DNA from: an uncultured bacterium
GTDB taxonomy: Bacteria > Verrucomicrobiota > Kiritimatiellia > CAIKKV01 > CAIJXV01
Assembly: GCA_903824675.1 (NCBI GenBank)
Contig: CAIJXV010000025.1
Span: 1 to 36,329 of the forward strand
Reading direction: 5' to 3'
Length of the DNA: 36,329 bases
Notes under the pieces: generated by a model
Told to the model about the DNA's origin: nothing
Seen by the model: only the letters and a program-made list of their open reading frames with translations
Databases searched by the model: none
Made by a program: the position numbers and the translations under genes
In this document: piece by piece, positions 1,911 through 6,589 of the stretch
Numbering within the stretch: the stretch's first letter is position 1
How the letters are laid out: each line of letters opens with the position of its first letter

Positions 1911-2960
1911 ATGGAACGCTCTGCTTATTTTATCCGCCGTCTGCTGTTGATCGTGCCCACCTTTTTAGGCATCACGATCCTTTGTTTTGCCATCGCCCAA
2001 GTCGTTCCGGGGGGCCCCGTAGAACAGGCACTCCTCCAAATCCGCGGCATCGGATCAGGCGAAACCCGACCCGGCACCGGGGCCCTTGCCACCATTTCAC
2101 TCGAACAGCGCAAGGCACTCCAAATCCGCTTCCGCTTTGATCAACCCCTGCCCATCCGCTATTGGCGCTGGCTGGTTGACGACCGCATGGGCATGCGCAT
2201 GGAATCCTATCGCTTTCCCAATAAAACCGCATGGGAGCTTATTCGCCAGCGATTTCCAGTCTCTCTCATTTTTGGCCTGACCGGCTTCTTTCTAAGCTAC
2301 CTCATTTGTATCCCGCTGGGCATCGCCAAAGCCCTGCGGCAGGGCGGCGTTTTTGACGCTTTATCCAGTCTGCTGGTTTTCATCGGTTATGCCCTTCCCG
2401 CTTTCGCGTTCGGAATGCTCCTTAAGTTGCTTTTTTGCGGCACCCAGGAAGCCTTCTGGGATCTTCTCCCCCTGGCCGGCTTTCATTCCGATGGTTATGC
2501 CAACCTTTCTTTGCTCGGAAAATTTATGGATGTCACCCGCCACATGGCCCTCCCGGTTCTCTGCTACGTGATCGGAAATTTCGCCGTGCTCACGCTCCTG
2601 ATGAAAAACGCTTTACTCGAACAAATCAGCCGCGACTATGTCCGTACCGTCCTCGCCAAAGGAGGCACCTTCTCTCGGGCCGTCTGGGGCCATGCTTTTC
2701 GGAACGCCTTGATCCCGATCGCCACAGGAATTGGCGGCATTCTCACGGTTATGTTCTCGGGCTCGGTTATCATTGAGCAGGTCTTTGAAATTCCCGGCAT
2801 GGGTCGTCTCAGCCTCGAGGCCATCGTCGGCCGCGATTATGCGGTTTTCATGGGCATCGTCGCCTTGACCTCGCTTCTGACATTGCTGGGCAACGTCCTC
2901 TCTGACCTCTGCTATGTGCTGATCGATCCCCGACTTGATTTCCAGGCGAAAAACTCGTGA
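1911..2960 (+). CDS. yejB: Peptide ABC transporter permease (YejB-like)
   Basis: This 349-residue inner-membrane permease belongs to the binding-protein-dependent transport family and forms one half of the importer channel. An N-terminal membrane segment (RRLLLIVPTFLGITILCFAI) precedes a periplasmic loop with VVPGGPVEQAL. A block of hydrophobic helices follows, including the ATPase-contacting EAA region around DYVRTVLAKGGTFSRAVWGHAFRNALIP. The length suits YejB (about 360 residues in E. coli). Its stop codon overlaps the GTG start of the next permease (GTGA, 2957-2960), the classic arrangement for coupled translation of two subunits. Confidence 0.93.
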   Translation: MERSAYFIRRLLLIVPTFLGITILCFAIAQVVPGGPVEQALLQIRGIGSGETRPGTGALATISLEQRKALQIRFRFDQPLPIRYWRWLVDDRMGMRMESYRFPNKTAWELIRQRFPVSLIFGLTGFFLSYLICIPLGIAKALRQGGVFDALSSLLVFIGYALPAFAFGMLLKLLFCGTQEAFWDLLPLAGFHSDGYANLSLLGKFMDVTRHMALPVLCYVIGNFAVLTLLMKNALLEQISRDYVRTVLAKGGTFSRAVWGHAFRNALIPIATGIGGILTVMFSGSVIIEQVFEIPGMGRLSLEAIVGRDYAVFMGIVALTSLLTLLGNVLSDLCYVLIDPRLDFQAKNS

Positions 2961-4555
2961 TCTTTTTTCGTTTCCAACTCAATCCGATCGCCCGCAAGCG
3001 GTGGGCGCGCTTTCGGGGCCTGCGCCGTGCCTGGTTCTCCGCCATCGCCCTGGTCGCTCTTTTTCTTATCAGCCTCTGCGCGGAATTGATCTGTAATCGC
3101 GATCCCCTTGCCGTGCGCTATAACGAACATTGGTATTTCCCCGTTTTGAACTTCCAGCCAGAAGACCGCTTCACCGGCAACGGTCGTCTAACCCGTCCGG
3201 ATTATAAGCGCATCGCCGCCGATCCCGCCTTCCGGGCCAACTCTCACAATCGCATGTTTTTTGCGCCGATTCCGTATGGTCCCAACGAAATCATTCGACC
3301 TGAATCCATTCCCGTTCCCCCGGGGATCAGCCTCCTCTTCACCCCCCAAGGCCAATCGGGCTCCATCCAAATCGACAGTGCCGGCATCATCCGGCGCAAC
3401 CTCGGTGCCAACGCTTTTTTTCCGTCGACCGGCAATCAGCTCGAAGGGCAGTCATTAGCTGATCATTGGATTATCCCTGCGTCTTTTCAGGACGCTATCA
3501 AAACCCGTTTACGGAATGAGGCCGCGCCTTCGCTGGCCGTCGTTCTGACCCATGCCCGAAGCACCTTCCAGGCACACGCGAGCCTGGCCTCATTCCAACC
3601 TCGCAATTCCCCTCCCATCGGAATTCGCATAACCTTCGAAGAAATCATCCCTGCCGCCGCAGCTCAAGAAGTCCGGCTGGACGACGCCGTGAATCCCCTT
3701 CCCCCCATCCCCGCTCTCTGGCTCGCGTGTTCTGCTCAAACTCGCGCCCTTCTACTCGATGGGGCGCGCAAAGGCCTGTCCGAAACCCCGGATCCAATCG
3801 ATGTCGAAATCGGCACCCGGCCCTGCCGTGTTACGTTCCGCAAGCCCGAAATCCGCTGGCCTTATCCCCCCGTCGCCAACCATTGGCTGGGCATCGACAA
3901 TGCCGGGCGTGATGTCCTGGCCCGCCTGCTTTATGGTCTCCGGATTTCCCTTTCCTTCGGGCTTATTCTCGTGGGCATCGCCATGGGCATCGGGATTTTA
4001 GTCGGCGCCATCCAAGGCTATTACGGCGGACGGATCGATTTGGCTGGCCAGCGCTTCATTGAAATCTGGAGCGCTCTCCCGTTCCTCTATATCATGATTT
4101 TACTCGGAGCCGTCTATGGGCGGGGGTTTCTTCTGCTCCTCGTATGTTATGGGCTGTTTAATTGGATTGGAATATCCTATTACTTGCGCGCTGAATTTCT
4201 CCGGCTCCGTCACCAACCCTTTGTGGATGCTGCCCGCGTCATGGGGCTGAAGGACCGCGTCATCATGTTTCGCCATATCCTGCCCAATGCCCTGGTCCCG
4301 GTGATCACGTTCTTTCCTTTTTCCCTCGTCGGTGCCATCGGCTCACTCGCGGCGCTGGATTATCTTGGATTTGGGCTTCCCCCGCCCACCCCCAGCTGGG
4401 GAGAAATGCTCCAGCAAGCCCAGCAATTCCGCTGGGCGTGGTGGTTGATCCTGTATCCCTCTCTCGCCTTGTTCATCGTCATGTTGCTCGGAATTTTCAT
4501 CGGGGAAGGGGTCCGCCAGGCTTATGACCCCCATCGACCCTCCCATTGGGAATAA
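2957..4555 (+). CDS. yejE: Peptide ABC transporter permease (YejE-like) with large periplasmic insertion
   Basis: This is the second permease of the importer. It starts at GTG 2957, overlapping the yejB stop by 4 nt. Residues 24-46 form the first membrane segment. The YejE-type N-terminal loop follows (PLAVRYNEHWYFPVL, then APIPYGPNEI at about 103-111). Canonical permease sequence resumes at HWLGIDNAGRDVLARLLYG (about 309-327), with five or so further helices and the EAA loop VDAARVMGLKDRVIMFRHILPNAL. The roughly 190 residues between these blocks are extra: YejE proteins are usually about 340 residues, this one is 532. The insert has no hydrophobic helix, so by topology it should face the periplasm. 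I do not recognise its fold. The next importer gene starts only at 5576, because an inserted unit (4620-5504) lies in between. Confidence 0.9.
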   Translation: MIFFRFQLNPIARKRWARFRGLRRAWFSAIALVALFLISLCAELICNRDPLAVRYNEHWYFPVLNFQPEDRFTGNGRLTRPDYKRIAADPAFRANSHNRMFFAPIPYGPNEIIRPESIPVPPGISLLFTPQGQSGSIQIDSAGIIRRNLGANAFFPSTGNQLEGQSLADHWIIPASFQDAIKTRLRNEAAPSLAVVLTHARSTFQAHASLASFQPRNSPPIGIRITFEEIIPAAAAQEVRLDDAVNPLPPIPALWLACSAQTRALLLDGARKGLSETPDPIDVEIGTRPCRVTFRKPEIRWPYPPVANHWLGIDNAGRDVLARLLYGLRISLSFGLILVGIAMGIGILVGAIQGYYGGRIDLAGQRFIEIWSALPFLYIMILLGAVYGRGFLLLLVCYGLFNWIGISYYLRAEFLRLRHQPFVDAARVMGLKDRVIMFRHILPNALVPVITFFPFSLVGAIGSLAALDYLGFGLPPPTPSWGEMLQQAQQFRWAWWLILYPSLALFIVMLLGIFIGEGVRQAYDPHRPSHWE

Positions 4556-4619
4556 TGGCCCTTCCGAATTTAGCGTGGGATTGATCATTGAGGACAATAC
4601 ATGATTGACGGTGGAATGG

Positions 4620-4675
4620 GATCGACGAAGCAGGTCGACGAAGTGTAACCGAGTAAGTGTGGGACGAAGTGTTGG
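4620..4675 (+). repeat. Left arm of 56-nt imperfect inverted repeat
   Basis: The reverse complement of this 56-nt segment aligns without gaps to 5449-5504, with 43 of 56 positions identical by hand count. It contains short internal direct repeats (cgacgaag twice, gacgaagtg twice). The arm ends 19 nt before the ATG of the four-helix-bundle gene. Together with the right arm it brackets that gene, as the ends of a mobile or excisable unit would. Just outside, 4581-4609 is AT-richer and repeats attga-like words. No target-site duplication was recognised. Confidence 0.8.
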
Positions 4676-4694
4676 GAGATAAGGACTATGTGTC

Positions 4695-5447
4695 ATGGCA
4701 CAACTATTTGGTCACGAGAAACTCACAGTTTACCATAAAAGCATGGAATTTGCGGCGAGCCGAAGCGAATTGCTTGATGGATTACCTCGGCGAGTTGCCG
4801 CCTGCGATCACCTTGCTCGCGGAGCGGAGAGCATTATCGTAAACATTGCTCACGCTAGTAGTTCGTGGTCTCCGAAGGAACGGCTCGTCTACTTGGGACA
4901 CGCCAACGGGTCAGCGCTTGAGTGCGCCGCCTGTTTGGATGTGTTTGCCGCGAAGAAACTGGTGGCAAACCAGGATGTCTTTCCCGGCAAACGTTTGTTG
5001 GCCGAGATTGTCAGCATTCTCATGGCCATGCGGAAAACAACGGCCAACAGGGTGTGCGAAGTTCATGCCCTGTATCACACGGAGAAGGGTAGATTATTTA
5101 GTCATGAGGATCTGGACGTGTATCAGACAGCGCTCCGACTCACGGGTTGGGTCGAAAGCCTGCTCACCGTGTTCTCGTGCAGTGCGGATCTTCTTTCCAA
5201 ACTCGATGTATCAACGACGGCGATTGTTCTCAATCTAGCAGAGGGCAATGGTCGCTTCAGTAGAGCCGATCAGGCGAAGTTTCTCTCCATCGCATACAAA
5301 GCGACAGTCCAGTCGGCATCACTCGTAGATCTGGCAACGGCCAAGGTTTCTGCGAAACCTTCCCAGATAGAAGACGGCCGTGAAATGTTAAGATGTATAG
5401 CGGCAATGCTCACATCCCTCTCAAAGGTCGCTTCCCATGACACTTAG
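4695..5447 (+). CDS. Tandem four-helix-bundle protein (23S rRNA intervening-sequence / S23-like family)
   Basis: The protein has 250 residues and two copies of the four-helix-bundle domain found in proteins encoded by 23S rRNA intervening sequences. The copies start alike: HEKLTVYHKSMEF at 7-19 and HEDLDVYQTALRL at 137-149. The second has the family signature NLAEGNGRFSRADQAKFLSIA (about 180-200), conserved as N-x-AEG-x-GR-x-S. The first has the degenerate NIAHASSSWSPKERLVYLGHA (50-70). Usual members are single-domain, about 120 residues. AAGGA lies 9 nt before the ATG. The gene sits inside a peptide-transporter operon, in the same direction, bracketed by inverted repeats at 4620-4675 and 5449-5504. 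By eye its base composition is less GC-rich than its neighbours. Both facts suggest acquisition. The family's biochemical role is unknown; the fold also occurs in Avd of diversity-generating retroelements, but no reverse transcriptase is present here. Confidence 0.85.
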   Translation: MAQLFGHEKLTVYHKSMEFAASRSELLDGLPRRVAACDHLARGAESIIVNIAHASSSWSPKERLVYLGHANGSALECAACLDVFAAKKLVANQDVFPGKRLLAEIVSILMAMRKTTANRVCEVHALYHTEKGRLFSHEDLDVYQTALRLTGWVESLLTVFSCSADLLSKLDVSTTAIVLNLAEGNGRFSRADQAKFLSIAYKATVQSASLVDLATAKVSAKPSQIEDGREMLRCIAAMLTSLSKVASHDT

Positions 5448-5448
5448 G

Positions 5449-5504
5449 CGAACACTTAATCCCACCCTTTGTCGATTACGCTTCATCGACTCGCTTAGTC
5501 GATG
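5449..5504 (-). repeat. Right arm of 56-nt imperfect inverted repeat
   Basis: This arm is complementary over its full 56-nt length to 4620-4675 (43 of 56 positions). It starts one base after the stop codon of the four-helix-bundle gene. Most mismatches are scattered single bases, as expected of an old pair of arms or of an RNA stem under compensatory change. Confidence 0.8.
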
Positions 5505-5513
5505 GTTGAAGCG
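5479..5513 (+). repeat. Hairpin inside and just beyond the right inverted-repeat arm
   Basis: The arms cgcttc-atcgac (5479-5490) and gtcgat-gaagcg (5498-5503 and 5508-5513) pair as a 12-bp stem with a 4-nt bulge (ggtt) and a 7-nt loop. No T-tract follows, so a Rho-independent terminator is unlikely. The left arm lacks this fold and has tandem direct copies instead. The hairpin may mark the end of the inserted unit. Confidence 0.6.
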
Positions 5514-5575
5514 CACAGGTCCACCCAAGACCATTCAGAATTCACACGAAAAAAACGTAAGATCAAAATAACCCC

Positions 5576-6589
5576 ATGCCCCACACCCATCCTCAACCGC
5601 TACTGACTGTTCGCGACCTGCGGGTCGGATTCACCGTTGATGAAGGTTATCTGCGTGCCGTCGATGGCGTTTCGCTCGACGTTGCTGAAGGTGAAACCCT
5701 CGGCTTGGTCGGCGAATCGGGCTGTGGCAAATCGGTCACAGCATTAAGCCTGCTCCGCCTGATTCCTCAGCCACCGGGCCAAATCGAAAGCGGTTCGGTC
5801 CATTTCCGCGGTCGCGATTTACTCACTTTATCAGCGGCGGAACTCCGCTCTGTTCGCGGCCGGGAGATCAGCCTGATTTTCCAGGAACCCCAACAGGCTT
5901 TTTCTCCCCTCCACCGCATCGGCGATCAGCTCGTCGAAGCCCTCCAATTCCACCAACCCATCTCTCGACCCGACGCTCTGTGTTTGTCCCGTGAATGGCT
6001 GACCCGGGTCGGCCTCGGCGATTCCGATGAACGCCTCCGGTCCTATCCGCATCAGTTATCGGGGGGAATGCTCCAACGGATCATGATCGTCATGGCCTTG
6101 TTTCTCAATCCCGCACTCGTGATCGCCGATGAACCCACCACCGCACTCGATGTCACCATTCAGGCCCAAATTTTCAGCCTCATGAAAACTCTCAAGGAAG
6201 ACCGAACTGCCTTGATGCTGATCACTCACGATCTGGGCGCCGTCTGGGAAATGTGTGACCGTGTCGCTGTCATGTATGCCTCCCGCATTGTTGAAACCGG
6301 ACAGGTCGCCGACCTGTTCGCTCGGCCGGCGCATCCTTATACCCGGGCGTTGATGCAATCGATTCCCTCACTCGACAATCCCGAAGAACGTCTCGAAGTC
6401 ATCCCCGGCCACGTCCCTTCCCCACTCGCATATCCCGTCGGCTGCCGTTTTCGCGATCGGTGCCCCCACGCTTTTGATCGCTGCAGGAAAGACTACCCGC
6501 CCGATTATTCCAAACCCGACGGCGGAATCGTCGCCTGTTTTCTCGCCGATTCCATTCATGCGCCTTCCGGTGCGGAAGGTCTCTCATGA
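5576..6589 (+). CDS. Peptide ABC transporter ATP-binding protein (OppD/DppD-like)
   Basis: This 337-residue cytoplasmic ATPase is one of two that drive the importer. Walker A is GESGCGKS at 46-53, the signature LSGGMLQR starts near 160, and Walker B is [12 protein letters not shown] near 181. The oligopeptide/dipeptide C-terminal domain follows, with the cysteine cluster [15 protein letters not shown] (about 288-302) and a final Cys in VACF. In DppD-type ATPases such cysteines can bind an iron-sulfur cluster. The gene ends in an ATGA overlap with the second ATPase. E. coli YejF fuses both ATPases; here they are separate, as in Opp/Dpp. It lies 1 kb downstream of its permeases because of the intervening inverted-repeat unit, and no clear promoter or ribosome-binding site was seen right before it. 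Confidence 0.92.

Follow-up and report, generated by a model that had tools for sequence, protein, structure and literature searches.

A tandem four-helix-bundle gene between inverted repeat arms in a peptide-transporter operon: a probable copy of a small mobile element

In a 36,329-nt contig of an uncultured bacterium of the Kiritimatiellia (the window), a YejE/OppC-like permease gene (2957–4555, forward strand; PF00528) and an oligopeptide ABC transporter ATPase gene (5576–6589, forward strand; PF00005 and PF08352) are held apart by a stretch that contains a single gene between two inverted repeats. The locus raises the question of what this stretch is and how it came to lie within an operon. 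The reading preferred here, to which we give a probability of roughly 0.7, is that it is a mobile-element copy in which a single gene, for a non-catalytic IVP protein, sits between inverted arms of tandem repeats, with the repeat unit matched to the encoded protein.

The arms occupy 4620–4675 (forward strand) and 5449–5504 (reverse strand). Without a gap, 43 of 56 positions of the first are identical to the reverse complement of the second; among 2000 shuffles of the flanks of the gene the best arm match was 31 (mean 25.8, s.d. 1.4). Each arm carries four degenerate units starting with GANNAAG at offsets 4, 17, 31 and 43 (4624, 4637, 4651 and 4663 in the 5' arm), and the register is the same in both arms, with the 3' units on the opposite strand. 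The units are spaced 12–14 nt apart, a periodicity that is not significant in the window arms taken alone. Arms were scored as the best inverted match between the 300-nt flanks of a gene, with a threshold of at least 36, which the window gene alone reaches when it is set among 212 ordinary genes from 400 kb of the genome and the window. The gene between the arms (4695–5447, forward strand) encodes a tandem PF05635 (23S_rRNA_IVP) protein, matched in two stretches (E 1.4e-25), domain 1 at 4716–5021 and domain 2 at 5106–5414, both on the forward strand. A transposase is absent from the element, whose sole gene is the IVP gene, and no reverse transcriptase gene lies beside it, the only one found in the genome being on contig C65. 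The window matched no defence-system model, the protein had no match among plasmids and phages, and a search of the element's own genome returned neither a second copy of the arms nor a near-identical second copy of the element. GC content is 52% in the gene, 46–49% in the intergenic parts and 55–58% in the neighbouring genes. The difference in base composition proposed by the sequence-only reading is thus real, but small.

The protein scores above the curated cut-off of two family models, with 89.9 bits for PF05635 (cut-off 33.8) and 75.4 for TIGR02436 (cut-off 24). Its AlphaFold model (pLDDT 90) consists of two four-helix bundles. The earlier claims of gap-free pairing between the arms, and of a tandem four-helix-bundle protein as the only gene between them, both stand. 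Among solved structures, Foldseek ranks first the Xanthomonas campestris IVP protein (2gsc; TM 0.89, relative to the target length); 2rld is also matched, and Avd (4dwl) appears with a score below the IVP structures. The 2gsc protein is a pentamer (PMC4990558; reference cited in PMC3936711). Comparison of the window gene with two relatives gives dN/dS values of 0.16 and 0.14, and the values among IVP copies range from 0.04 to 0.29, indicating that the IVP protein is being kept by purifying selection.

The stretch has been inserted where two operon genes meet. In relatives where yejE and the ATPase gene were both located side by side, the two genes overlap or are separated by at most 71 nt, with one exception that has its own insertion; in the window the distance is 1020 nt (4556–5575, of which 64 nt precede the 5' arm and 71 nt follow the 3' arm, so that the outer borders are approximate). 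The proposal that the unit parts yejE from its ATPase gene was therefore correct, and not every relative has the gene at this junction. An 84% identical protein is found in a genome of another family of the same order, where YejE is only 55% identical and yejE and the IVP gene lie on separate contigs. The resemblance between the window and a further copy (L074) sets in at the outer boundary of the window's 5' arm. The exception among the junctions (L032, in genome G018) carries 891 nt that were inserted independently between yejE and the ATPase gene, with a GxxExxY (PDDEXK_3) gene inside, flanked by inverted arms of CGCAGATT repeats (26 nt, 24 identical).

The same architecture is general, a point that the sequence-only reading missed, together with the tandem-repeat nature of the arms and the dependence of their unit on the protein. 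PF05635 genes occur in 100 of the 116 genomes of the class, with up to 16 per genome; the Verrucomicrobiota data are mostly metagenome assemblies. An arm score of at least 36 was found at 87 of 100 sampled loci, against 5.8% of mismatched upstream/downstream cross-pairings and 2 of 86 neighbouring genes (Fisher 7e-36 against the IVP loci). Five genomes assigned to other phyla have arms at 16 of 24 loci, against 2.9% of cross-pairings. Three contrast proteins from the genome of the window, with weak PF05635 similarity and a longer frame, either have no arms (L006 and L008) or a weak arm (L012). Copies that are 70–93% identical in DNA have the gene and arms in common and unrelated surroundings, similarity being lost within 300 nt of the arms in 204 of 208 pairwise comparisons. 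Exact borders could not be drawn from the similarity of diverged copies, which fades inside the arms already. Two copies (L053 in G035 and L054 in G007) keep both arms intact around a gene reduced to 55 or 47 residues, and some copies are kept at orthologous sites (L148/L149). The two arms of one copy are more alike than homologous arms in 101 of 119 pairs at 65–72% gene identity. Arm pairs are thus conserved within copies while homologous arms drift between diverging copies, which indicates that the two ends evolve together. In a subgroup (L135, L136, L137, L144 and L125) the ends are long imperfect palindromes, sometimes in adjacent copies. An Acido-Lenti-1 RNA (L076:357-401) and a cobalamin riboswitch (L099:2109-2297) each lie upstream of an IVP gene.

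The arms are degenerate tandem repeats, and the length of their unit, read as the self-match of an arm at each lag, varies with the clade of the protein: proteins with one domain go with units of 6 or 7 nt, those with two with units of 12–13 nt. The lag peaks are at 12 nt for double-domain loci, 6 or 7 nt for single-domain loci and 9 nt for GxxExxY loci. A 12–13-nt unit is present at 46 of 50 double-domain loci and at 0 of 69 single-domain loci. Phylogeny places all single-domain proteins with 6-nt units in one clade (21/21, SH-aLRT 99), and those with 7-nt units make up the remainder of the tree. All 50 first and all 50 second domains of the double proteins are nearest to 6-nt single-domain proteins; the double-domain proteins thus appear, from their sequences, to descend from the 6-nt clade, and doubling of the domain therefore accompanied doubling of the unit. 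For cyanobacteria it was predicted in advance that the clade of a single-domain gene would decide whether its arms have 7-nt or 6-nt units. Of the 15 single-domain loci there, two have a unit of 8 nt and the others one of 7 nt, multiples included, so that the prediction holds at 15 of 15 only when 8-nt units are allowed; inverted arms are significant at 13 of the 15. This correspondence suggests that each four-helix bundle may read one repeat unit. However, the evolutionary switches are few (6 to 7 nt once or twice, 6 to 12 nt perhaps once), so shared descent could give part of the rule. The repeat runs are ~30–35 nt long in every IVP class, or about five units of 6–7 nt.

GxxExxY genes (L187–L215 and L069–L071) have inverted repeat arms at 30 of 31 loci, against 4% of cross-pairings. 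By their sequences they would represent a second cargo with the same architecture and a unit of ~9 nt, for which support is weaker than for the arms themselves. At two loci (G055:C68:2043-4267 and G056:C4:54141-56004) IVP and GxxExxY genes lie within 2 kb of each other.

Mobility can be followed in complete cyanobacterial plasmids, which were compared for occupied and empty sites. Between plasmid C of Trichormus variabilis and plasmid2 of Nostoc linckia, which are 97–99% identical, there is a clean 423-nt insertion with a 5-bp duplication, GTAAT. A third plasmid, from Scytonema, has an insertion of the same 423-nt type in which one arm is shorter by 14 nt, corresponding to two heptamers. Two Nostoc plasmids have reciprocal occupied and empty sites. 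A gene-less insertion of 270–330 nt with CAGGAGT heptamer ends (L287, ~373–700, on pC052_B of Nostoc C052) is absent from pNsp_b. In Nostoc UHCC 0302, a 515-nt insertion is present in one of three homologous plasmids and replaces 21 nt of the target. A target-site duplication is seen as 5 bp in one relative, and the others have none or have lost target sequence; with one 5-bp duplication and one 21-nt loss the junctions are not uniform. Taken together, the empty sites, the copies elsewhere in unrelated surroundings, the derivatives with internal deletions and the purifying selection on the gene support well the suggestion, made at the outset as one of two, of a small mobile element. A solitary 40-nt arm on plasmid 4 of Nostoc UHCC 0302 (L290, ~600–640) has 100% identity with one of the Trichormus arms, and no IVP gene is annotated nearby. 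Three IVP elements (L266, L270 and L271) lie within CRISPR-cas operons, at cas6/cas4 and cas10/cmr3; in Picosynechococcus PCC 7002 the cas10/cmr3 site carries no element. IVP genes inside cas loci have been reported without a mechanism, and insertion of such elements may explain these published 'CRISPR-associated' genes (PMC3936711, PMC10910872).

The other suggestion made at the outset was an RNA processed at a long stem. Under this explanation the element would resemble the 23S rRNA IVS: the arms would pair in the transcript, RNase III would cut the stem and free the gene as an RNA fragment, and complementarity would be kept for processing. The predicted fold of the window RNA does pair the arms, the joint evolution of the two arms across copies is as expected of a stem, and RNase III cuts the 28-bp stem at the ends of the rRNA element of Coxiella, which also has heptamers near its 5' end (PMC4990558). 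Orientation points the same way. Between co-directional genes, 54 elements are in sense and 2 are not, compared with 140 and 43 ordinary genes (P = 0.00035). However, mismatches in the arms do not lean towards changes that would allow G.U pairing in the sense strand (213 versus 291 the other way), so selection for a stem in the sense RNA is not supported by them. Neither the window nor any of 39 related loci contains rRNA, and selection on a stem alone explains neither the tandem repeats nor a unit that tracks the protein. The sense orientation keeps this explanation in play, but we consider it unlikely.

Sense insertion into transcribed regions would also fit retrotransposition in trans, in which a reverse transcriptase of the cell would copy the element RNA and the IVP protein would help as Avd, a protein of the same fold, does in diversity-generating retroelements. 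Against this, reverse transcriptase genes were found in 56 of the 116 genomes and IVP genes in 100, and none was detected in several of the genomes rich in IVP genes, G032 (16 genes) and G029 (9 genes) among them; the presence of reverse transcriptase does not track that of IVP genes, which speaks against it as the mobilizer. The 423-nt plasmid insertion has neither an A-tail nor 5' truncation, and this explanation is more doubtful still. Least probable, by a small margin, is a settled regulatory gene whose ring would bind repeats in the operon mRNA and adjust how well the following gene is translated, like TRAP, spreading by ordinary gene transfer: strong purifying selection, the sense position in operons, copies kept at orthologous sites and the closeness of arms to start codons, which they immediately precede (several cyanobacterial copies have an arm that starts beside the upstream stop and ends beside the IVP start), would agree with it, but presence and absence between near-identical plasmids, unrelated host genes and flanks around 70–93% identical copies, and the existence of decayed copies do not.

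For the mobile element, the following mechanism is proposed. The IVP protein would form a ring, as in pentameric 2gsc, and each four-helix bundle would bind one repeat unit, so that about five units (30–35 nt) would load one ring per end. The IVP gene may be read from the host transcript, because a promoter would hardly fit into the 5' arms of cyanobacterial copies (~35–40 nt, some with AGGAG resembling an SD), and such reading would explain the sense orientation. In the weakest part of the proposal, the ring would hold both ends together for an enzyme supplied by the cell that cuts. Reverse transcriptase is unlikely to be this enzyme because many IVP-rich genomes have none detected. A broader generalization, for which we see about even odds, is that IVP rings are modular readers in which a bundle binds one 6- or 7-nt unit, that transposase-less element families are defined by a protein and end arrays that match each other, with GxxExxY as a second class of ~9 nt, and that many heptamer repeats, including the cyanobacterial STRRs, are ends or remnants of such elements.

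The window element probably belongs to a very common and, judging from the open-licence literature, apparently undescribed family of mobile elements. In that literature no paper was found that connects repeat arms or mobility with IVP genes located outside rRNA. Elhai et al. reportedly described very small mobile repeats in cyanobacteria in 2008. If the reading is true, these very small mobile elements of ~0.4–1 kb, with up to 16 genes per genome here, would form an abundant class that is currently annotated only as 'four helix bundle protein', and a domain-by-domain reading of short sequence units would be suggested. Since around 1990 no function has been assigned to IVP/S23p proteins or to the rRNA sequences in which they are encoded (PMC4990558), and the cyanobacterial heptamer repeats are described without a known role (PMC2670836). 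The match between unit and protein suggests a link between the unexplained bacterial heptamer repeats and IVP elements. If the encoded protein sets the unit length, IVP function and the role of the heptamers could both be tested by one binding assay.

Among known systems, the 23S rRNA IVS of Salmonella, Leptospira and Coxiella encode S23p/IVP, and the Coxiella rRNA element has tandem GACAGAT heptamers before its gene (PMC4990558). The window element shares with them the protein family, inverted terminal repeats and a gene in the loop. It differs in its place in a protein-coding operon, its two domains, its 12–14-nt units and its copies at many varied sites, and it is not classed as an IVS because its location is not in rRNA. 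The cyanobacterial STRR heptamers and other heptamer arrays are intergenic, mostly 7-nt and patchy in distribution, suggesting horizontal transfer. They are of the same kind as the arms around single-domain IVP genes; however, the passages considered here link them to no encoded protein or mobile element (PMC2670836, PMC4692102, PMC4679880), whereas the IVP arrays are the ends of elements. MITEs and REPIN/RAYT systems are likewise small units with inverted ends, intergenic spread and gene-less derivatives, and REPIN/RAYT also pairs a protein with short repeats. In contrast to both, the IVP protein has no known catalytic fold, the ends are tandem arrays rather than a fixed sequence or palindrome, and target duplication is seen in one case only; relative to REPIN/RAYT, the window element also has neither a Y1-type transposase gene nor a palindromic REP. 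Avd of diversity-generating retroelements is a pentameric four-helix bundle with a nucleic-acid role, but the window has no reverse transcriptase and no template/variable repeat pair, and 4dwl ranks below the IVP structures. Finally, TRAP is a ring protein and RNA regulator that binds regularly spaced triplet repeats. Although its fold is unrelated to that of IVP and it is a regulator rather than part of a mobile element, it resembles the proposed IVP binding in that one repeat unit is taken up by each subunit of the ring.
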